Below are positions 15,160 to 49,459 of a stretch of DNA of 49,509 bases, piece by piece. Numbering within the stretch: the stretch's first letter is position 1; the number at the start of each line of letters is the position of its first letter. The stretch comes from Patescibacteria group bacterium (GTDB lineage: Bacteria > Patescibacteriota > Patescibacteriia > 2-12-FULL-60-25): assembly GCA_029004215.1 (NCBI GenBank), contig JAQULH010000006.1, positions 1 to 49,509 of the forward strand. The letters run 5' to 3'. The position numbers were made by a program, and so were the translations under genes. The notes beneath the pieces are model-generated. The model did not search any database and had not been told where the DNA came from. It saw only the letters and a list, made by a program, of their open reading frames with translations.

Positions 15160-16350
15160 ATGCCGACCGATGTCCAGAAGATTAAAGATGAATTGGGCAA
15201 GCTGCGCATCGCCTTGGTGCACGATTATTTGGTGCAAGATGGCGGTGCCGAGCGTGTTTTGGCGGCCTTCCAAAGGATCTTTCCCCAAGCTAAAACCCAT
15301 GTCATAGTCCACAACCCAAAATGCACTCACCCGGATTTTAAGGGTAAACAAATCATCACTTCTTTCTTGAATGACTGGCCTTTGGCCAAAAGCTATTACC
15401 AATGGTATTTGCCGGCCTTGCCCGTGGCCGTTGAACACATCGACTTATCGGGTTATGACTTGATCATCAGCTCTTCGAGCTCTTTTGCCAAAGGCGTGAT
15501 CACGCCGGCCGGGTCAAAACACTTTTGTTACTTGCACACGCCGACCCGTTTTCTTTGGGAACAGCGCATTGGCTATCTGGCAGACCTCCCGCAACCCAGA
15601 ATTATCCGCGCCGCCTTGCCTTGGCTCCTCCACCGCTTGCGGCTCTGGGACAAAATGGCGGCCGATCGGCCTGATTATTTGTTTACCAATTCAGAGACCA
15701 GCCGCCGGCGTATCCAGCGCCATTATCGCCGCGAGGCAGAAGTTATTTTCCCGCCGGTAGATATTGACCGCATCCCAATGTCGCGCCACTTGGGCGATTA
15801 TTGGTTGGCTGGCGGCCGACTCGTCGCTTATAAAAGATTTGATTTGATTGTCAAAGCTTTTGCCAAGCTCAATGTGCCTTTAATTATCTTCGGAGTCGGG
15901 CCTGAACTCAAAAAACTCAAAAAATTAGCCGGCCGCCGGACAAAATTCGTGGGAGCTGTCAGCGACGAAGACAAAGTCAAACTTTATAGGCGCGCCATTG
16001 GTTTTATCCATCCGCAGATTGAGGATTTTGGCATCACGGCCATCGAGGCCATGGCAGCCGGGCGGCCGGTCATTGCGTTTGGGCAAGGCGGCGGGTCCGA
16101 AACAATTATCCCGGGCAAGACCGGCAAGTTTATTGAGTGCCAAGCTTGGGAAGATATTGGCGATGCTGTCATCAGGCACAAAGCAGACGATTATCGCCCG
16201 GAAGATATCAGGCAACATGCTGAAAGTTTTTCATTCGCCGCTTTTGAAGAAAAACTTTTGCATCAGATTGCCAGCCGCTTGAATATCCTACCGACTCAAG
16301 AGACCGAAGAAGCCTTGTTAGGCAATGTTTATGGCACGTATTTTGATTGA
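15160..16350 (+). CDS. Glycosyltransferase family 4 (GT-B fold)
   Basis: A 396-residue enzyme that moves a sugar from a nucleotide sugar to a growing glycan at the cytoplasmic face. The N-terminal domain begins IALVHDYLVQDGGAERVL, typical of GT4. The C-terminal domain has the donor site: HPQIEDFGITAIEAMAAGRPVI (the E-x7-E region) and the preceding FVGAVSDEDKVKLYRRA. No signal peptide; SSSSSFAKG marks the family's central part. It overlaps the next glycosyltransferase gene by about 17 bases, so the two act together, plausibly on a cell-surface polysaccharide. Confidence 0.92.
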   Translation: MPTDVQKIKDELGKLRIALVHDYLVQDGGAERVLAAFQRIFPQAKTHVIVHNPKCTHPDFKGKQIITSFLNDWPLAKSYYQWYLPALPVAVEHIDLSGYDLIISSSSSFAKGVITPAGSKHFCYLHTPTRFLWEQRIGYLADLPQPRIIRAALPWLLHRLRLWDKMAADRPDYLFTNSETSRRRIQRHYRREAEVIFPPVDIDRIPMSRHLGDYWLAGGRLVAYKRFDLIVKAFAKLNVPLIIFGVGPELKKLKKLAGRRTKFVGAVSDEDKVKLYRRAIGFIHPQIEDFGITAIEAMAAGRPVIAFGQGGGSETIIPGKTGKFIECQAWEDIGDAVIRHKADDYRPEDIRQHAESFSFAAFEEKLLHQIASRLNILPTQETEEALLGNVYGTYFD

Positions 16351-17389
16351 TGCGCGGGCCTTGGCCGATGAACGCAGTGGCGGCGTGGGACGAGCAGCCA
16401 GATACTGGATACTACAAGTAACTAGTAACGAGTATCGAGTAACGAGTGATAACTTTTTACTAGTTACTAGTTACTCGTTACCGGAGGTCGTTTGCGTCAC
16501 AACCGGCCTTAAGCCATCGCTAGCTGTCCAAGAGTTTTGCGAAGCCAATCATTTTAAATATCTCCATTTGCGTTTACCCAACAAACTTTGGACAGCGCTC
16601 TCACTTTTGCAACTTATCTCTTTATCGCGAGCTGCTGAAAAACGCGTAGGCAAAATTGATCTGGTCCTACTCCCCAATCTCGGTTTTGTCGGCCCTCTCC
16701 ATCGGCCTTATCATCTTTTAATTCATGATTTGTCTTTTTTAATCGAACCACACTGGTTTAGTTTGAGACGCCGCTGGTGGCACAGGCTTATGCCCATCAA
16801 GAAATTGATCGAGGGCGCGGATAAGCTCGATTGCGTATCAGAACAGACGCGACAAGATGCGCTCAGAATTTTTAAACTGGATGAAAATAAAACCAGCGTC
16901 ATCCCACCCATGGATTTTGGTTTGCCAAACATTGAGGCCGTTCGACCAAGCTGGCTGCCAAACTCAATCCAAAAATTTGTACTGTTCTTGGGCGGAGCTG
17001 ACCCGCGCAAAAACATCCATACTGCTTTGCGCGCCATCGCGCTTTACAATGTCGGACATTCAACGTCGCCTTTAGTGCCTATTGTCTTGGGCGGTCAGGT
17101 CAAGTGCAAACGCAACCAGTGTCCCCTATCCCATGTCAAAGCACCCAATCACGTCAGCGACCCAGAACTAAAATATCTTTACCAAAATGCTGCCACTATC
17201 CTCTATCCATCTTGGTATGAGGGTTTTGGCCTGCCTTTGCACGAGGCCTATCACCTGGGCACGCCTATTATCGCCTCAACTGCCGGCGCTTTACCCGAAA
17301 CAGCCCCTCCCAAAACCTTCTTTTGCCACCCAGCCAAACCTCACGAATGGCTGATGGCTTTAGAGGTAATTTTGGGTAGGTCTGCCTAG
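16334..17389 (+). CDS. Glycosyltransferase family 4 with in-frame repeat insertion
   Basis: A GT4 enzyme of 351 residues. The ATG at 16334 (MARILIDARALADE) is chosen over 16325 because it begins the family's first strand. The N-terminal landmark SGGVGRAARYW is followed directly by about 23 residues (29-51, VTSNEYRVTSD...LLVTSYSLP) encoded by a palindromic ACTAGTTACTCG repeat. The C-terminal donor site is YPSWYEGFGLPLHEAYHLGTPIIAS. The insert sits in the loop after the acceptor-side first helix, so the enzyme may tolerate it. It overlaps the preceding glycosyltransferase. Confidence 0.88.
   Translation, partial: ARILIDARALADERSGGVGRAARYWILQVTSNEYRVTSDNFLLVTSYSLPEVVCVTTGLKPSLAVQEFCEANHFKYLHLRLPNKLWTALSLLQLISLSRAAEKRVGKIDLVLLPNLGFVGPLHRPYHLLIHDLSFLIEPHWFSLRRRWWHRLMPIKKLIEGADKLDCVSEQTRQDALRIFKLDENKTSVIPPMDFGLPNIEAVRPSWLPNSIQKFVLFLGGADPRKNIHTALRAIALYNVGHSTSPLVPIVLGGQVKCKRNQCPLSHVKAPNHVSDPELKYLYQNAATILYPSWYEGFGLPLHEAYHLGTPIIASTAGALPETAPPKTFFCHPAKPHEWLMALEVILGRSA
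16418..16486. repeat. Palindromic GTAACGAGT/ACTCGTTAC repeat inside a glycosyltransferase gene
   Basis: Left arm GTAACTAGTAACGAGT and right arm ACTAGTTACTCGTTAC form an imperfect inverted repeat around TTTTTACT. Length keeps the frame open. A relative lies at 27890-27966 between genes. Confidence 0.7.
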
Positions 17390-27877: not shown

Positions 27878-27885
27878 CTTCGCTT

Positions 27886-27966
27886 CGCTCGTCAGTAACG
27901 AGTAATCAGTAAAAAGTAAAAAGTTATTCATTACTCGTTACCCGTTACTCGTTACTAGTTACTGAA
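27886..27966. repeat. Intergenic palindromic repeat GTAACGAGTAA/TTACTCGTTAC
   Basis: It belongs to the same family as the insert in the glycosyltransferase at 16418-16486: CAGTAACGAGTAATCAGTAA on the left and TTACTCGTTACTAGTTACTG on the right. It fills the gap between the membrane protein and pilB. Confidence 0.65.
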
Positions 27967-27968
27967 TT

Positions 27969-29864
27969 ATGAGTCCTGCTCCTGCACGCAAGCCCAAAAC
28001 ACCATCCATTGAAGATTTGCTGAAGAAGCCGGCTACGACTTCGGTTATTTCGGGTGTTTCTACGCCCGGAACTTTTAAAGGCGCCAAGAAACTTGCAGGA
28101 GTGGCAGTCAAAAAAACCAAAAGCCCTTCGGAAATGTCTCAAATTGAACTTCTGGAATATAAGATGAAGCAGATAGAGACATCTGAAATCGAACGACAAG
28201 CCCAACGCGAAGCCGCCCAGCATTCATTGCCTTATATCAACTTAAAAGGCTTCCCTATTTCCCCGGAAGCTTTAAGCCTGCTCTCTAAAGAACAAGCTGA
28301 AGCCTCTAAAACGATTGTTTTCCTAAAAGTTACGGATGAAATCAGGATCGCCACATCCCAACCCAGTGACGCGGTTTTTGAATTGGCAAAAAAACTGGCC
28401 GAGGACCAGGCTTCTGACATCCAAGTCTATTATTGCTCGGAAAACAGCTTTCAATTCGCGCTAGCGCTCTACGAAGCTTTGCCCAAAACCATCGAAGTTG
28501 TCTACGGCGTGAGGATTTCAACCGAAGACCTGCAAAAATTCGAAAAGGAAATATCCAACTTCAAAGACTTGCAGGAAAAAATCAAGAAAGTTTCTACCAC
28601 TGATACTTTAACTTTGGTTATTGGTGCCGCCTTAAAGGGCAATGCCTCGGACGTGCACATCGAGGCCGAAGAAGACGGCATCAAAGTCCGTCTGCGCATC
28701 GATGGCATCTTGCATGATGCAGCCGTCATACCCAGTGCCCAATGGAAACTTATTATTTCGCGCGTCAAACTGCTTTCGGGCATGAAGATCAACGTTGATA
28801 CGGTGCCTCAGGACGGGCGCATCACCATCTATCTGACCAATGAAAAGATAGAAATCCGCGTTTCGACTTTACCCACGGCTTATGGCGAATCTGTTGTCAT
28901 GCGTCTCTTGCGTCCCAAATCGATTTCCCTGGATTTCGAGCAATTGGGTATCGAGGGCTTGGCATGGGAAAGGCTTAAGAAAGAAATTGAGAGGCCAAAT
29001 GGCATGATTGTGACCACTGGTCCGACCGGGTCAGGTAAGACCACGACCCTCTACGCCATATTGAAGAGGCTGAATACTCAGGAAGTCAAAATCATTACCC
29101 TTGAAGATCCTGTTGAATATAAGTTGGCTGGCATCAACCAAAGCCAGATCGACCATTCCAAAGATTACACTTTTGCCAAAGGCTTGCGCTCAATCCTGCG
29201 CCAAGACCCTGACATCGTAATGGTCGGCGAAATCCGTGATACTGAAACTGCCGAAATCGCTGTTCAGGCAGCTTTAACAGGCCACTTGGTCATCTCTACC
29301 ATTCATACCAACAATGCGGCCGGCGCTATCCCCCGTTTCCTTTCCATGGGCGTCAAACCGTTCTTCCTGGCTCCGGCTTTAAACTGCGTCATTGGCCAAC
29401 GTCTGGTTCGCCGCTTGTGCCCAGAATGCAAGCAGCCGGTTAAGTTAGACGCGACCATGCTGGAACAGGTAAAAAAAGAGTTAACAGACTTGCCCAAGTC
29501 AGCCAATATCAAAATAGACATGGAAAAGTTGGAGTTCTTTGGCCCTTCGGAAAAGACCAAAACCTGCCCCAACTGCAACGGCTTGGGATATAAGGGGCAA
29601 ATCGGTATCTATGAAATTTTTACCATGAACAAGGATATCGAACACATGATTTTGGGCGCTTCTGTTTCGGAATATGACATGTTGGCCATAGCTAAGAAAT
29701 TCGGCATGATTACTATGACCCAGGACGGGTTGCTCAAGGCCTCGCGCGGATTGACTTCGGTTGATGAAGTCTTGCGTGTGGCCGGTATTGAAGTTGAAGA
29801 CGAAGAAGAAAAAACAGACGAAGCGTCGGCTAAAGCTGACAAACCGCCGACAGAAATAAAATAA
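27969..29864 (+). CDS. pilB: Type IV pilus assembly ATPase (PilB/GspE family)
   Basis: Cytoplasmic hexameric ATPase driving pilus extension or secretion. The 631 residues comprise an MshEN-like N-terminal part (about 90-200), N2 domain (205-330; ASDVHIEAEEDGIKVRLRIDG), Walker A GPTGSGKT (351-358), Walker B/Asp box (DPDIVMVGEIRD), His box (STIHTN) and the tetracysteine zinc site (CPEC, CPNC) before GQIGIYEIF. The first 60 residues are a Lys/Pro/Ser-rich linker. Patescibacteria usually keep type IV pili for host contact. Other pilus genes are not in this window. Confidence 0.94.
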   Translation: MSPAPARKPKTPSIEDLLKKPATTSVISGVSTPGTFKGAKKLAGVAVKKTKSPSEMSQIELLEYKMKQIETSEIERQAQREAAQHSLPYINLKGFPISPEALSLLSKEQAEASKTIVFLKVTDEIRIATSQPSDAVFELAKKLAEDQASDIQVYYCSENSFQFALALYEALPKTIEVVYGVRISTEDLQKFEKEISNFKDLQEKIKKVSTTDTLTLVIGAALKGNASDVHIEAEEDGIKVRLRIDGILHDAAVIPSAQWKLIISRVKLLSGMKINVDTVPQDGRITIYLTNEKIEIRVSTLPTAYGESVVMRLLRPKSISLDFEQLGIEGLAWERLKKEIERPNGMIVTTGPTGSGKTTTLYAILKRLNTQEVKIITLEDPVEYKLAGINQSQIDHSKDYTFAKGLRSILRQDPDIVMVGEIRDTETAEIAVQAALTGHLVISTIHTNNAAGAIPRFLSMGVKPFFLAPALNCVIGQRLVRRLCPECKQPVKLDATMLEQVKKELTDLPKSANIKIDMEKLEFFGPSEKTKTCPNCNGLGYKGQIGIYEIFTMNKDIEHMILGASVSEYDMLAIAKKFGMITMTQDGLLKASRGLTSVDEVLRVAGIEVEDEEEKTDEASAKADKPPTEIK

Positions 29865-29868
29865 CTTT

Positions 29869-30372
29869 TTAAAAAGAAATACGCACCTCGATGGGGTGCT
29901 TTTTCGATAACCAAGACCTGATATTCTCCGGCCACTCAATAAGTACGACTGTTCCTGGCTCCATGAGTTCTTCATCTAGATCTAGTACGACCAAATCTTT
30001 CACGTCTTCAATCCTATAAGCATCAACATGAACTAAACGTCGAATATCGAATTTCCGCTTCGCTGAATCTCGAATCTCGGTTTTTCTATTTCGAGATACG
30101 AGTTTCGAGATACGAGTTTCGAGTTTATAAATCCGCATCAAGGCGAACGTCGGTGAGATGGCTCTTTTGGGGGCGTCTAGAGTTTTTGCGAGGTATTGCA
30201 CCAAGGTCGTTTTGCCAGCTCCCAGTGGACCCGAAAGCGCGACGATTGTTCCGGGTTTTACCAAACGCACTAAGGCCTTTGCTACGTTTTGCCAGTCGTC
30301 TACTTTATGGACAACGAAATGGCTGGCGGTCTTGCCGGATTTAATTGTGACTTTGCGAGTTTGCGAGGTCAT
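29869..30372 (-). CDS. tsaE: tRNA threonylcarbamoyladenosine ATPase TsaE, with in-frame repeat insertion
   Basis: TsaE is the P-loop ATPase that drives the TsaBD complex making t6A37 in tRNAs. 167 residues with Walker A GPLGAGKT (about 48-55), ISPTFALMRIY and HVDAYRIED followed by LIEWPE. Between ISPTFALMRIY and LVHVDAYRI about 30 extra residues (83-112) are encoded by a CTCGAATCTCGA palindrome; the family has only a short loop there. The same repeat is in the upstream tsaD. The start codon overlaps the tsaD stop (ATGA), so the two are co-translated. Confidence 0.93.
   Translation of the reverse strand: MTSQTRKVTIKSGKTASHFVVHKVDDWQNVAKALVRLVKPGTIVALSGPLGAGKTTLVQYLAKTLDAPKRAISPTFALMRIYKLETRISKLVSRNRKTEIRDSAKRKFDIRRLVHVDAYRIEDVKDLVVLDLDEELMEPGTVVLIEWPENIRSWLSKKHPIEVRISF
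29883..29904 (+). terminator. Terminator of pilB inside the convergent tsaE end
   Basis: GCACC/GGGTGC around TCGATG, then TTTTTC on the plus strand, within the last codons of tsaE. Confidence 0.55.
30037..30126. repeat. Palindromic repeat inside tsaE
   Basis: The left side reads CGAATTTCCGCTTCGCTGAA and TCTCGAATCTCGG, and the right side reiterates GAGATACGAGTTTC. It encodes R-K-T-E-I-R-D-S-A-K-R-K-F-D-I-R on the minus strand, nearly the same peptide as the insert in tsaD at 30690-30773. Confidence 0.8.
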
Positions 30373-31598
30373 AAGTCCTTATCAGGTTCAGCATCTAATG
30401 CTTGCCAGCGAAGAGCCTTTTTATGCTTTATGATTTTCCAAAGCCCGGCAGCGGCTATCATGGCGCCATTATCAGTAAACAAACCTCTAGCCGGAGCCAA
30501 GAGTTTGATGCCCGGGCAATTCTTTTTTAACGCGGCCTTGAGATCGGCTTTGAGTTTCGGGTTGGCTGACACGCCGCCGACAACTGCTACGGCGCGAGGC
30601 CTGACTTTAACTGCGGCTCTGACCGTCTTAGCGACCAGAGTCTCGACGATCGCCGCTTGGATACTGGCGCACATGTCCTCCAACGTGCCGCCTCGAATCT
30701 CGAATCTCCGCTTCGCTGAATCTCGAATTTCGATTTTTCCGTCCCGAGCTTCGAGATACGAGCTTCGAGCTTCGATAAGTTGTCTGACAGCTGTTTTGAG
30801 ACCCGAAAAACTGAAATCCAACGAAGGGTCGTGGATCATGGGTCGCGGTAAGACGAAAGCTTTGGGATTGCCTTTCGATGCCAGTTGTGAAAGTTTAGGG
30901 CCACCAGGATATCCCAGGCCCAAGAGCTTGGCGGTCTTATCAAACGCTTCACCAGAAGCATCATCCCGTGTGCGACCTAAAACTTTATACGATCCAAAAT
31001 CTTTCATCAGCACCAGCTCAGTGTGCCCGCCGGATACAAGCAAAAATAAAATCGGAAACTTCCAATCCTGGCGATTAGCCGGTACCAGCCAGGCCGAGGC
31101 TAAGTGCCCCTCAAGGTGGTTGATGGGTAACAATGGTTTGTTATAAGCCCAGGCAAGAGTTTTAGCCGCTTCAATGCCGACTCTCAAGGCAGTCGCCAGA
31201 CCAGGACCCTGCGTAACGGCGATGGCGTCAAAGGTTTCTTGTGACTCGTGACTTGTGACTCGTGACGGGTCCGAATCAACGTGTCGCGTATCGCGTGTCA
31301 CATTGTGCGACCATCCCAATGTCTTCTCGAGAAGTGAGATGACCTCTGCCACGTGCGTCCTGGCTGCAATTTCCGGCACGACTCCCCCATATCGCGCATG
31401 AATCGGGATCTGCGTGGAGATCAGATGCTTCTCCAACCGTACATCGTACTTCGTACCACATACAACGTTATTTTTCGATCGCGGTACGTTGTACGTTGTA
31501 CGTTGTACATTAAGTAGCGCCACACTGGTTTCATCACAGCTGGTTTCGATGCCTAAAATCCTGATGGTTGCGCTATTTTTTTGACACCTTTGAAGCAT
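30369..31598 (-). CDS. tsaD: tRNA threonylcarbamoyladenosine transferase TsaD, with three in-frame repeat insertions
   Basis: TsaD moves the threonylcarbamoyl group to A37 of ANN-decoding tRNAs. The family's metal site is intact (HLEGH at 161-165), with GIETSCDET near 16-24, VSGGHTEL at 188-195 and VVGGVSANPKL near the end. At 409 residues it is about 70 longer than usual, and the excess maps to three insertions encoded by palindromic repeats: 30-54 (NVQRTTYNVPRSKNN...), 98-121 (HNVTRDTRHVDSD...) and 276-303 (EARDGKIEIRDSAKRRFEIR). All fall between secondary-structure blocks. tsaE follows with a 4-base overlap. Confidence 0.95.
   Translation of the reverse strand: MLQRCQKNSATIRILGIETSCDETSVALLNVQRTTYNVPRSKNNVVCGTKYDVRLEKHLISTQIPIHARYGGVVPEIAARTHVAEVISLLEKTLGWSHNVTRDTRHVDSDPSRVTSHESQETFDAIAVTQGPGLATALRVGIEAAKTLAWAYNKPLLPINHLEGHLASAWLVPANRQDWKFPILFLLVSGGHTELVLMKDFGSYKVLGRTRDDASGEAFDKTAKLLGLGYPGGPKLSQLASKGNPKAFVLPRPMIHDPSLDFSFSGLKTAVRQLIEARSSYLEARDGKIEIRDSAKRRFEIRGGTLEDMCASIQAAIVETLVAKTVRAAVKVRPRAVAVVGGVSANPKLKADLKAALKKNCPGIKLLAPARGLFTDNGAMIAAAGLWKIIKHKKALRWQALDAEPDKDL
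30690..30773. repeat. Palindromic repeat 3 inside tsaD
   Basis: CTCGAATCTCGAATCTCCGC, CTTCGCTGAATCTCGAATTT, then CGAGCTTCGAGATACGAGCT: same family as the tsaE insert. Confidence 0.8.
31236..31307. repeat. Palindromic repeat 2 inside tsaD
   Basis: Iterations of GTGACTCGTGAC and CGTGTCGCGTATCGCGTGTC face each other around GGGTCCGAATCAA. A different sequence family from repeats 1 and 3. Confidence 0.7.
31437..31511. repeat. Palindromic repeat 1 inside tsaD
   Basis: ACATCGTACTTCGTACCACA on the left and GTACGTTGTACGTTGTACGT on the right, around TTATTTTTCGATCG. A third sequence family built from GTACGTT units. Confidence 0.7.
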
Positions 31599-41065: not shown

Positions 41066-42730
41066 ATGCCTGAAACGAGCCTCAAGGCGTGCGTCATTTA
41101 TTGCCGTGTATCCTCGAAGGAGCAAGTCGAGGGCACGAGTTTAGATAATCAGGAGCGGCTTTGTCGTGAGTACGCCGAACGAAATGGTTTAGCCGTACTC
41201 AAAGTGTTTGTTGAAATGGGCGAATCGGCAAAGACAGCCGACCGTACAGAATTCACCAAGGCGATTGCGTTTTGCACCCACAAGAAAGGTCGCGTTCACC
41301 AATTCATCGTTTACAAGATTGATCGCTTTGCTCGCAACCAAGATGACCACGTTGTTGTCCGGAGCTTGCTCAAGCGAGCTGGCACCGAGCTCCGTTCTGC
41401 CACGGAAACGTTTGATGAAAGTGCGATGGGGAGAGCTATGGAAGGGATGCTGTCCGTCTTCGCAGAATTCGATAACAACAACCGTCGCGAGCGTTGCAAA
41501 AGCGGGATGCAGGCGCGTGTACGCGAAGGTCTCTGGTGTTGGGCGGCACCGCTTGGCTATCACAGACCGGTTAAGGGCAAGAAAACAAACATCGTGCCCG
41601 AACCGGAACGCGCTCCGCTCATCCGTTTGGCGTTCGAGCTCTATTCAAAAGGCACGTATACATTCAAAGCATTGGCTCGACTATTGGGTGATCGCGGATT
41701 ACGCACGCGCGAGGGGAAATATCCGATTCAGCAAACGCTCGAGAAAATCATCACAAACCCCGTGTATTGCGGTCGAATCAAGGCGTTCGGGGAGATGGCG
41801 AAAGGCAATTTTGAATCCATCGTCGATGAGGCGTTGTTCGCTCAATGCCAAAATGTGAAGAGCGGACTTCACCTCAAAGGCAAGCCGCGTGCGTTCAACA
41901 ATCCTGCTTTCCCGTTGCGGCGGTTCGTTGTTTGCCAGCATTGCAATCAGCCACTTACCGGAAGCTTTGCTCGTAGCCGCAGAGGCAAACGCCATCCGTA
42001 CTATCACCATGGTAGCAAGAAGTGCGCGCATTCAAAATCCATTCAAAAGGGTGTATTCGAACAAAAATTCGTTCAGCTCTTGGAAACTATCGAGCCGGAC
42101 ACGAAGTACGAGAAGCTGTTCAAGGCCGTCGTGCTCGATGCGTGGCAGGAACGATACAAGAAATTTGATGAGACGAATGCCCGCGTTCGGAAGGATATCG
42201 AGAAACTCGAGCACGAACGTCAGACCATTTTCGACTTCCACCGCAACGGTAAATACACCGATGATGAATTCGTGACCCAAAAACACCTCGTCAACGAGCG
42301 GATCGACCAGAAACGCCTACTACTCCAAGACGCGCGGCAAAAAGAGTTGGATATGGAAATGGCTTTGAATTATTGTTTTCATTTCATCCGTAACGCTTCG
42401 AAGGTTTGGATGGATTTGGCTGACGATTATGAGGCGCGGATCAACCTCCAGCATTTGATTTTCGCAAAGCCGCTCATGTTTGATGGTGATTCTTTTGGAA
42501 CCCCCGAATTGTCGCTAGTCTTTGCACAAAAAAAGACTTCTCCTGATGAGAAGTCTTTTTTGGTAGACCAACCTGCTAATTTTTGGAACCAGCTGGTTGA
42601 GGAGCTAAAACAGCTCCATGCCATTGGTTTTGAGGTAAGACAAGGTGTTATTAATGGGAATAAACACTACCAGAGAGGAGTGGAAATAGAAAAAGAACAC
42701 CCCAGCAGCTACGCATGGGGTGTTGAGTAG
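41066..42730 (+). CDS. Large serine recombinase 1
   Basis: Site-specific recombinase of the large serine integrase family, 554 residues. The resolvase domain has the nucleophile in YCRVSSKEQ (Ser16), with YKIDRFARN and the Arg-rich RRERCKSGMQ helix. The recombinase DNA-binding domain (about 150-265; APLGYHR, ALARLLGDRGLRTREG) is followed by the zinc ribbon (CQHC ... HHGSKKCAHS) and a coiled coil (about 355-440). After FGTPELSLVFAQKKTS the frame crosses a hairpin and the att-like TTGGTAGACC and runs on for about 50 residues with no likeness to the family, so the C-terminus was probably created by insertion. Confidence 0.93.
   Translation: MPETSLKACVIYCRVSSKEQVEGTSLDNQERLCREYAERNGLAVLKVFVEMGESAKTADRTEFTKAIAFCTHKKGRVHQFIVYKIDRFARNQDDHVVVRSLLKRAGTELRSATETFDESAMGRAMEGMLSVFAEFDNNNRRERCKSGMQARVREGLWCWAAPLGYHRPVKGKKTNIVPEPERAPLIRLAFELYSKGTYTFKALARLLGDRGLRTREGKYPIQQTLEKIITNPVYCGRIKAFGEMAKGNFESIVDEALFAQCQNVKSGLHLKGKPRAFNNPAFPLRRFVVCQHCNQPLTGSFARSRRGKRHPYYHHGSKKCAHSKSIQKGVFEQKFVQLLETIEPDTKYEKLFKAVVLDAWQERYKKFDETNARVRKDIEKLEHERQTIFDFHRNGKYTDDEFVTQKHLVNERIDQKRLLLQDARQKELDMEMALNYCFHFIRNASKVWMDLADDYEARINLQHLIFAKPLMFDGDSFGTPELSLVFAQKKTSPDEKSFLVDQPANFWNQLVEELKQLHAIGFEVRQGVINGNKHYQRGVEIEKEHPSSYAWGVE
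42534..42562 (+). terminator. Hairpin at the 3' end of recombinase 1
   Basis: AAGACTTCT/AGAAGTCTT with loop CCTGATG, followed by TTTTTT, inside the annotated frame and just before TTGGTAGACC. Confidence 0.65.
42560..42569. repeat. att-like core TTGGTAGACC, middle copy
   Basis: One mismatch to the left (39070) and right (49384) copies; it lies directly after the recombinase 1 hairpin, where the family C-terminus should end. Confidence 0.5.
42692..42726. terminator. Hairpin at the recombinase 1 frame end
   Basis: GAACACCCC/GGGGTGTT around a loop of about 12 bases. No U-tract on the plus strand. Confidence 0.4.
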
Positions 42731-46573: not shown

Positions 46574-46803
46574 AATGGTAATTGGCAGAGGCTTGATAAA
46601 CACAAAGCCCGCCGCCAGCGGCAACCTTTCGGTCGCCCATATCTCTTTCGAGACATGACCATACAAGTAGTGCTGAACGACGGGTTCAGTATCTTGTATG
46701 GGTTTCATGCCATGCCCGTGCCAAGGCGCGAGTTTAGGCGGGTTTAAATTGTGTCATCATAGTACCCAAATCTACCCAACCTGTGAAGATGTTGCTTTTC
46801 CCC

Positions 46804-47732: not shown

Positions 47733-47894
47733 ATGGTCGAACACGAATCGCTCGCGGCCAAACTCCGAAAGGAATTTGACCGTTTGCAAATCACGGACGA
47801 GACAACCAGAAATGCCCTTACAACCGAACTGAATCAAATTGCCATACTCCTGATTGAATCTTGTCCGCATGATCCAACAGAAGTCAAAATGTAA
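47733..47894 (+). CDS. Small ORF preceding recombinase 2
   Basis: 53 residues (MVEHESLAAKLRKEFDRLQI ... LLIESCPHDPTEVKM), ending 22 bp before the recombinase start. It is helical and analogous in position and size to the 62-residue ORF before recombinase 1, although the sequences differ. Confidence 0.5.
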   Translation: MVEHESLAAKLRKEFDRLQITDETTRNALTTELNQIAILLIESCPHDPTEVKM

Positions 47895-47916
47895 CCGTAC
47901 ACATTTCCCGCTAAAT

Positions 47917-49425
47917 ATGTCGCCCAAACATGTCATCGGATATTGTCGCGTCAGCACCACCGAACAGGTGCGTGAAGGCGCGAGTTTGGACGTGCAGGAG
48001 CGCATCCTCCGCGAGCACGCGGCGCGGCAAGGTTGGGAAATGGGTAAAGTGTATGTCGAAAAAGGCGAAAGCGCTAAAACCACCAACAGAACCGAACTGC
48101 AAGCAATGCTCCGGCACTGTAAAGAAAATCCGAAGAAGGTTGATGCAGTGCTCGTTTATAAGATAGACCGTTTGACCCGAAATACCGAAAACTACTATCA
48201 GCTCAAAGGTTTTTTTACGGCGCTTGGGATCGAATTGGTATCAGTCGGCGAACCCGTGGAAAATACTCCCGTTGGCCGTTTCGTGGAAGGTATGTTTGCA
48301 AATGTGGCACAGCTTGATAATGACATGCGCTCGGAACGTTGCCGTAACGGAATGAAAGAAGCTGTCCGTAATGGCCGCTACGTATGGAAGGCGCCACTCG
48401 GCTATAAAAATGTGACCGTGAATGGCAAAAAGAATATCACCCCAGAAGAACCGCAAGCTGCGTTTATCGCTCGCGGCTTCAACTTGGTGGACAATGGATA
48501 CACGCCCACCGAGGCGCTCCGTGTTTTAGAAAAAGACGGTTTTCGCCAGCGGAACGGTAAGCATGTCGCGTTTACCCATTGGAGCAAGCTGCTGCGCCAC
48601 ACGCTCTACGCTGGCCATATCAGCGCGTTCGGTGACGTTGTGAAGGGTAGCTTCACTCCGATTGTGGATACAGTTTTGTTTGAGCGCGTCCAGCAAACAC
48701 TGCGGGGTAACAGCGCCAAGCTTCCCGTCTACCGCAAGCAACGTGACGACTTCCCATTGCGCGGTTTGTTTGTCTGTACCTGTGGCAAACATCTCACGGC
48801 GAGCTGGTCACGCGGGCGTCATGGCAAACGCTATCCGTTCTACCATTGCGCCAAGTGCAAGGGCGTAAGGCGGCGCAAGGACGATCTGGAGGCCGAATTT
48901 TCGAATCTATTGGCAGACAAAAACATGGACGAGAACCTTGCTACGTTGCTTCGCATTGCCATCGCGGAAAACCTCAAAATCAAGCTGGAAGACAACGAAA
49001 AACGCAAGCGTGAGATCGAGCATCGCATTTTGGAGCTTGAGGACGAGCAGGCGCACATCGTAAAGAAAAACATCGCAGGGACATTCAACGATGAAATGGC
49101 AAAACGGCTCACGGAAAAAGCCGAGGCGGAGATCAACGAACTACATCAGGAACTCGCAACCATCCCTACGACAGCGGAACGCGTGGAACATTTTGTAGAA
49201 TACGGTTTACTTGTTATGCGTGACGTTCAAACCGCATGGCAAACCTTTCCATTATTACAAAAACAGCGGTTCCAATCATTTCTTTTTCCCGAAGGCGTGC
49301 CGTTTGACCACGGAAAATTTGGAACCCCTAAAACTGCGCTAGTATTAGAAATAAAAACAACCTTCCGTGATGGAAAGTTGCTTTTGGTAGCCCCAAGGGG
49401 AGTCGAACCCCTCTTAACGGCTTGA
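47917..49425 (+). CDS. Large serine recombinase 2, reading into tRNA-Glu
   Basis: 502 residues; the ATG at 47917 gives MSPKHVIGYCRVSTTEQ, with the nucleophile in CRVST (Ser13). The resolvase domain (YKIDRLTRN), recombinase domain (APLGYKN ... GFRQRNGKHVAF), zinc ribbon (CTCGKHLTASWSRGRHGK ... CAKCKG) and coiled coil (about 350-420) are complete. After FGTPKTALVLEIKTT the frame crosses a hairpin, the att-like TTGGTAGCCC and 41 bases of the antisense tRNA-Glu gene; the last residues VAPRGVEPLLTA are tRNA complement, so the true C-terminus is set by the integration site. Confidence 0.93.
   Translation: MSPKHVIGYCRVSTTEQVREGASLDVQERILREHAARQGWEMGKVYVEKGESAKTTNRTELQAMLRHCKENPKKVDAVLVYKIDRLTRNTENYYQLKGFFTALGIELVSVGEPVENTPVGRFVEGMFANVAQLDNDMRSERCRNGMKEAVRNGRYVWKAPLGYKNVTVNGKKNITPEEPQAAFIARGFNLVDNGYTPTEALRVLEKDGFRQRNGKHVAFTHWSKLLRHTLYAGHISAFGDVVKGSFTPIVDTVLFERVQQTLRGNSAKLPVYRKQRDDFPLRGLFVCTCGKHLTASWSRGRHGKRYPFYHCAKCKGVRRRKDDLEAEFSNLLADKNMDENLATLLRIAIAENLKIKLEDNEKRKREIEHRILELEDEQAHIVKKNIAGTFNDEMAKRLTEKAEAEINELHQELATIPTTAERVEHFVEYGLLVMRDVQTAWQTFPLLQKQRFQSFLFPEGVPFDHGKFGTPKTALVLEIKTTFRDGKLLLVAPRGVEPLLTA
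49359..49384 (+). terminator. Hairpin at the 3' end of recombinase 2
   Basis: AAC-C-TTCC/GGAA-A-GTT around GTGAT, then GCTTTT, directly before TTGGTAGCCC. Same architecture as at 42534-42562. Confidence 0.5.
49384..49393. repeat. att-like core TTGGTAGCCC, right copy (tRNA-Glu 3' end)
   Basis: Complement of the last bases of tRNA-Glu (GGGCTACCA plus A). Identical to 39070-39079. The tRNA 3' end is the probable chromosomal target of the elements. Confidence 0.55.
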
Positions 49426-49459
49426 AAAGCCGCTGTCCTAACCGATAGACGATGGGGCC
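49385..49459 (-). tRNA. tRNA-Glu (anticodon TTC)
   Basis: 75 bases on the minus strand, with encoded CCA. Acceptor GGCCCCA/TGGGGCT (first pair G-U), D-arm around TCTATCGGTTAGGAC, anticodon stem GCGGC/GCCGT with loop TTTTCAA, and T-arm AGGGG-TTCGACT-CCCCT. The anticodon TTC reads GAA/GAG. The 3' part overlaps the recombinase 2 frame on the other strand. Confidence 0.95.

Follow-up and report, generated by a model that had tools for sequence, protein, structure and literature searches.

In-frame heptad repeat arrays in the tsaD gene of a Patescibacteria genome and the differing repeats of its relatives

How does an essential protein gene come to carry three blocks of repeat DNA without losing its reading frame? 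The question is raised by a gene on the minus strand at 30369-31598 of a 49,509-nt stretch (the window) of contig JAQULH010000006.1, from the Patescibacteria group bacterium assembly GCA_029004215.1. The product, of 409 aa, is tRNA N6-adenosine threonylcarbamoyltransferase (TsaD), as identified by an NCBIfam scan (TIGR03723, 348 bits against a cut-off of 296). The Pfam TsaD family matches it as well, and its predicted structure gives target TM-scores near 0.9 against solved TsaD chains. An initial annotation, made from the sequence alone, had described the gene as about 70 codons longer than usual, with the excess in three repeat blocks that keep the frame. The blocks do lie at the positions given there, all within a single open frame, and the extra length is real: TsaD of the congener G003 has 347 aa, and 61 of the 62 additional residues fall at the three sites (17+23+21). 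Solved TsaD chains of 327-354 aa, among the best eight matches, break in alignment at the same three places.

Several kinds of bacterial repeat are candidates for comparison. Rickettsia palindromic elements (RPEs) are described, in excerpts of PMC2229807 and PMC10969869, as stem-loop DNA repeats of several families and 105-146 bp that occur between genes and in frame within protein genes, including conserved ones, and reference titles in PMC2229807 point to palindromic coding repeats in Wolbachia and Methanocaldococcus jannaschii. Excerpted accounts of bacterial heptanucleotide arrays name the units GGACCGG, MTYCTGA (Geobacter), GGGAATC (Xanthomonas), GGGGA(T/C)T (Nostoc) and TAACTGA (Beggiatoaceae). 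At the microdiversity loci of Escherichia coli, Staphylococcus aureus and Streptococcus pyogenes, related strains carry different short segments; according to an excerpt of PMC2884548, 35-55% of these loci are intragenic with the frame kept, and homology-assisted illegitimate recombination or fragile sites were proposed to account for them.

All three tsaD inserts, on the minus strand like the gene, are built of 7-nt units. Site 1 (31438-31514) follows the residues CDETSVALL, is of the GTACGTT type with GTACAAC heptad arms around a loop, would encode the peptide NVQRTTYNVPRSKNNVVCGTKYDVRL and adds 17 aa relative to G003. Site 2 (31236-31310), of the GTGACTC type with GTGAC/GTCAC heptads and the predicted peptide SHNVTRDTRHVDSDPSRVTSHESQET, adds 23 aa and is absent from G002, the sister species, and from G003. 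Site 3 (30691-30781) follows SGLKTAVR, adds 21 aa, is of the TCGAATC/CGAGCTT type with TCGAAGC and GAGATTC heptad arms, and has the predicted peptide EARSSYLEARDGKIEIRDSAKRRFEIRG. At a lag of 7 nt the best match was 20, 18 and 17 of 21 positions for sites 1, 2 and 3, with only 5-11 matches at the control lags of 6 and 8. Inverted arms matched at 17/20, 14/20 and 16/20 positions, and the number of shuffled sequences that folded as well as the insert was 2/200 for site 1, 79/200 for site 2 and 10/200 for site 3. Inverted repeats are plain at sites 1 and 3, and palindromy is weak at site 2. The description of the blocks as three palindromes of different families thus stands for the repeats at every site and for palindromy at sites 1 and 3, but not for strong palindromy at site 2. 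A BLAST search of the sampled genome for dispersed copies returned six further matches for site 3, two for site 1 (both at one place in L056) and none for site 2; pattern searches recovered further copies of all three families, and copies were found in frame inside other protein genes.

These arrays belong to a class that occurs throughout the sampled genome, for which repeat scans covered 436,009 bases (the window and 20 further stretches). Tandem runs with at least 12 matches numbered 14 at period 7 and nine at period 14, with 0-3 at each of the remaining periods between 2 and 30; because periods 7 and 14 dominate the genome's tandem runs in this way, the tsaD repeats exceed what chance would give. 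A looser scan yielded 51 array clusters, the lowest-scoring few of which (for example L053:2687 and L057:4590) are probably chance. Their cores, with families named by reading the sequences, are TCGAA, GTAAC, GTGAC, CGTAC, AATTA and ACAAG, each with two variable bases. The units consist of a 5-nt core plus two variable bases or of a 4-bp palindrome plus three, frequently arranged as a pair of inverted arms flanking a short loop: arms matching at 16/20 positions or better were present in 19/51 clusters, as compared with 0/51 in a mirror control, 4/51 in a complement control and 2/150 random windows. In G002 this signal was weaker (11/47 clusters against 3/47 in each control). Three further arrays in the window illustrate the class. 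A GTAAC-type palindromic array (16398-16494, plus strand) lies in frame inside a glycosyltransferase gene (16343-17389), where G002 has other repeats; a second (27885-27979) lies between genes and runs up to the next gene, whose start is at 27969; and a TCGAA-type array (483-530) begins at the stop codon of a gene that ends at 491.

Gene calls by our own dicodon caller (coding fraction 0.906), which misplaced the start of tsaD and so wrongly scored site 1 as a gene edge, assigned 22 clusters to gene interiors, 20 to gene edges and nine to intergenic DNA. Edges and intergenic DNA thus hold 29/51 clusters, though non-coding DNA makes up about 9% of the sequence; a higher density outside genes is the expectation if selection removes most coding insertions. 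The class is patchily distributed: the unit CNNGTNA in triplicate was found in 15/41 genomes of the family and 62 times in this genome, its reversed-pattern control giving 0 hits here, nine in G005 and seven in G008, and a GTAACNA triple was found in 8/286 genomes of the phylum sample. A single repeat family common to all congeners was considered and rejected, as the families differ among congeners. The CATG-type heptad CATGNNNCATGNNNCATG, encountered as a reversed control, occurs 99 times per strand in G006 and 40 times in G005, and is a further abundant heptad family in those two congeners.

Within genes, the arrays behave as translated sequence, judging from reading frames. Stop triplets were counted in 17 intragenic arrays (1,181 nt), comprising 16 of the 22 intragenic clusters plus tsaD site 1; the clusters L053:2687, L053:14042, L056:5834, L066:2245, L067:1 and L070:14608 were left out as weak, outside a domain or at the end of a stretch. 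Phases 0, 1 and 2 held 0, 16 and 21 stops, and it is for this distribution that we take the arrays as probably translated, phase 0 being empty by definition of an open frame and the weight resting on the arrays that lie inside Pfam matches. Such arrays occupy aa 189-206 within a KsgA-type match (16-266), aa 125-153 within a class II aaRS-like match (4-328), aa 89-114 within a TruB_N match (28-189) and aa 334-355 within a Mur ligase C match (245-392). Length differences between this genome and G002 were multiples of 3 in 12/12 intragenic comparisons, with tsaD site 1 counted as intragenic, and in 5/11 others. The same repeat class is present in other essential genes, namely tsaE, tmk, truB, a trmA-like gene, ksgA and metG. 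The idea that the element is an encoded peptide unit with a fixed coding phase was discarded: the TCGAA loop reads DSAKRRF in tsaD and tsaE and EIQRSGD in L067.

If the inserts were ancestral domains, relatives should carry conserved, non-repetitive sequence of equal length at these positions. That pattern was looked for and not seen, and ancestral TsaD domains are ruled out by G003 and most family members, which lack the extra length. Eight genus members with tsaD were compared (this genome, G001-G006 and G008; G007 had no match). By length thresholds, at least one site is enlarged in seven of the eight, the exception being G003, and in 12/33 proteins of the family sample and 3/17 of the class sample. 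Interior inserts of at least 7 aa, with cases at sequence ends set aside, were found among 50 TsaD proteins at site 1 in nine, site 2 in 11 and site 3 in eight; a fourth loop, at G003 residue 133, has inserts in five of the 50, and four single cases lie elsewhere. The residue-133 inserts all come from class genomes (c44, c46, c52, c53 and c55, at L027, L042, L043, L044 and L022), or 5/17 of the class proteins, and some are repeat-like. Three inserts in one TsaD had been thought remarkable, but this genome is not unique in that respect, G005 and G014 being enlarged at all three sites.

The congeners differ at these same three sites, as an insertion history would lead one to look for. For sites 1, 2 and 3 in order, this genome has GTACAAC, GTGAC and TCGAA; G001 has AATTAAC, CCCCCTT..AAGGGGG and GTACAAC; G002 has CCCCCTT..AAGGGGG, no insert and a CCCCTCTCC type; and G005 has CGCGCAA at all three. 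The GTACAAC family thus sits at site 1 in one species and at site 3 in another. Non-heptad palindromes occupy TsaD loops of G002 (site 3), G014 (sites 2 and 3), G020 and c53, and site 1 of G004 and of G008 is enlarged without a clear repeat. Because related species hold different repeats in the same loops, the TsaD loops appear to be places where small repeat DNA has landed repeatedly and been tolerated.

An AlphaFold2 model of TsaD, computed from 30 sequences, has a mean pLDDT of 90 and renders the inserts as a beta-hairpin extension and two low-confidence loops. The model draws site 1 out into a long beta-hairpin with strands at 23-41 and 44-62 (pLDDT 91-97 in blocks of ten); this is a prediction from one sequence, since none of the 29 others was chosen for sharing the inserts. 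Sites 2 (residues about 95-119) and 3 (about 281-300) are low-confidence in the model.

Other genes show comparable variation. The adjacent tsaE (29869-30372, minus strand, 167 aa) has its own insert at 30040-30136 on the same strand, which belongs to the site 3 family of tsaD (47 nt at 91% identity) and is 21 nt, or three heptads, longer than that of G002. The site 3 family is present in tsaE of both this genome and G002; the tsaE of G001 has a GTAC-type insert instead, and that of G003 lacks one. As compared by eye, tmk carries a GTGAC array here, a family of G005's own in G005 and little or nothing in most others; one loop of the trmA-like gene holds differing inserts across this genome, G002, G001, G005 and G006; and truB differs among this genome, G002 and G008.

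Array by array, a position in the G002 sample could be assigned to 23 of the 51 clusters, and 13 of these 23 faced a G002 heptad array, one of them in a loose 1.1-kb interval, as compared with 34 of 3000 random places that had no array in this genome. By eye, the 23 pairs comprised six of the same family, eight of different repeat families, seven with no repeat in G002 and two undecided. In the clearest pairs, near-identity of the flanks extends to the array or to the surrounding native loop; in several pairs native loop bases beside the array also differ, which blurs the insertion boundaries. Inspection of the pairs by eye revealed no target-site duplication. Opposite the array at 16398 in the window and L069:12970, the G002 loci L184 and L167 have longer non-heptad palindromic repeats, which we take to resemble repeats of other phyla. 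The array L069:8963 and its G002 partner have equal length and register and different units, and the loop bases of L057:12057 appear to be shared with its G002 partner, the arms being GTGAC in the former and GTAAC in the latter. Each of these two pairs may represent a single old array with units that changed in concert and no exchange, and both exchange and unit-by-unit change may lie behind family differences at the same site.

The reading that we consider probable is that the tsaD inserts are non-autonomous palindromic heptad repeats that work like RPEs, are tolerated in loops and are turned over in place. Small 7-nt arrays, often with two inverted arms, occur throughout the genome, and one that lands in a gene would be read as protein, surviving only if its coding strand has no in-frame stop, its net length leaves the frame intact and the protein loop is tolerant. 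TsaD would offer three such loops, which would gain, lose or exchange elements over time, each species often drawing on families common in its own genome. The inserts would be tolerated rather than useful, and actually translated, as far as open frames can indicate. The arrays are presumably mobile, given their dispersal and their differences from site to site; mobility is read from these two features because no agent of movement was found and the pairs with G002 showed no target-site duplication to the eye. The least secure step is the spread itself, which may proceed by copying or repair at hairpin-prone DNA, through homology-assisted illegitimate recombination, with no part played by a RAYT-type transposase. 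Y1_Tnp (PF01797) had no match in this genome, which is 95.6% complete, and one match each in G001 and G006; on the Y1 family, the one searched, a RAYT/Y1 transposase was set aside as the agent.

Other readings share some of this evidence. Certain loops might be standing exchange points, where hairpin breakage and repair swap the resident repeat for another genomic repeat, always in frame, so that sites persist over long periods and contents change; we hold this as a tentative possibility and would not rely on it. Concerted evolution of old arrays at fixed sites, their units homogenised or replaced by slippage and hairpin-templated copying with no insertion at all, fits the unchanged register of the L069:8963 pair, the apparently shared loop bases of the L057:12057 pair and the tsaE difference of exactly three heptads. 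It is nonetheless unlikely, as two kinds of site require gain, loss or exchange: those that are repeat-free in G002 (tsaD site 2 and tmk), and loops occupied in a congener or relative by an unrelated non-heptad palindrome (G002 site 3, G014 sites 2 and 3). The repeats could also be maintained as targets of a DNA-binding protein or as DNA uptake signals, with translation incidental. Core-plus-spacer units at a fixed 7-bp spacing and the crowding of clusters at gene edges and between genes suit that proposal, but selection against coding inserts would give the same extragenic excess, and the prevailing families differ by congener, which is not expected of a conserved reader protein; we regard it as improbable.

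Selection for useful loops that tune TsaD, in binding TsaB, TsaE or tRNA, seems more doubtful yet: sequences, families and lengths vary freely among species, G003 has none, and unrelated enzymes carry the same repeats, even if their recurrence at the same three loops and the insert in neighbouring tsaE are what such tuning might produce. Inserts that ribosomes skip, or that are removed, have precedents in byp elements and inteins, and hairpin-forming inserts within an essential gene invite the comparison. Removal at the RNA or protein level, or skipping, is extremely improbable given 0 in-phase against 37 out-of-phase stops, a frame kept in every intragenic comparison and no splicing domain in Pfam and NCBIfam scans of TsaD. 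We give hardly any credence to an assembly artefact of metagenome bins. Most of the genomes compared are draft assemblies in many contigs, but the repeats are in frame across many genes and species, including G001 with its four contigs, and arrays lie at matching places in two species.

How the arrays relate to described repeats can now be stated. The initial annotation had drawn a parallel to RPEs, and the likeness in apparent mode of action stands: the arrays are small repeats of several families that occur between genes and in frame within unrelated protein genes, conserved ones included, where they would be read as protein. Set beside RPEs by description alone, they form a broad class of 7-nt arrays, with many families among the members of one genus, a change of family within a given loop between sister species, inserts of 75-91 nt in TsaD against the 105-146 bp given in the RPE excerpts, and a host phylum, Patescibacteria, in place of Rickettsia; sites 1 and 3 fold better than most shuffles, as stem-loops should, and site 2 does not. 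As 7-nt tandem units above chance, the arrays are heptanucleotide tandem repeats, and they share with those in the excerpted accounts a mixture, in some, of fixed and variable positions; the units differ, and inverted coding pairs that differ by family at one place are not described in those excerpts. REP/BIME sequences, mobilised by RAYT, are likewise short dispersed palindromes, but the present arrays are not confined to extragenic DNA (22/51 clusters lie inside genes by the dicodon calls) and their genome is without a Y1_Tnp match. Of MITE features, the arrays show inverted arms (19/51) and, by eye in the G002 pairs, no target-site duplication. The dimorphic and polymorphic microdiversity loci, as excerpted, differ from them in that the differences here are between species and the segments are repeat elements. 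In the open-licence library searched, we found no report on TsaD inserts or on palindromic or heptad repeats translated in Patescibacteria, and six peptide motifs also had no match there.

Elsewhere in the window, a LOOT RNA (RF03000) was detected at 46620-46740 on the minus strand (79.9 bits; gathering score, 46.4). Two large plus-strand ORFs, 41066-42730 and 47854-49425, read like serine recombinases from their translations; a tRNA gene at 49388-49459 lies near both, and together these are possibly an integrated element.

For the biology of these bacteria, the observations extend translated palindromic elements, reported for Rickettsia in the excerpts cited above, to Patescibacteria, whose genomes are small and in which surplus DNA is unexpected, and sister species hold different repeat families at fixed sites. 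Peptides of this kind in these proteins should be annotated as repeat DNA and not as domains. If the exchange-point reading were true, TsaD, TsaE, the TrmA-like protein and TruB would be continually re-tagged with new peptides. TsaD itself, with three loops and about a dozen unrelated inserts among related species, provides a set of natural experiments on new protein segments.
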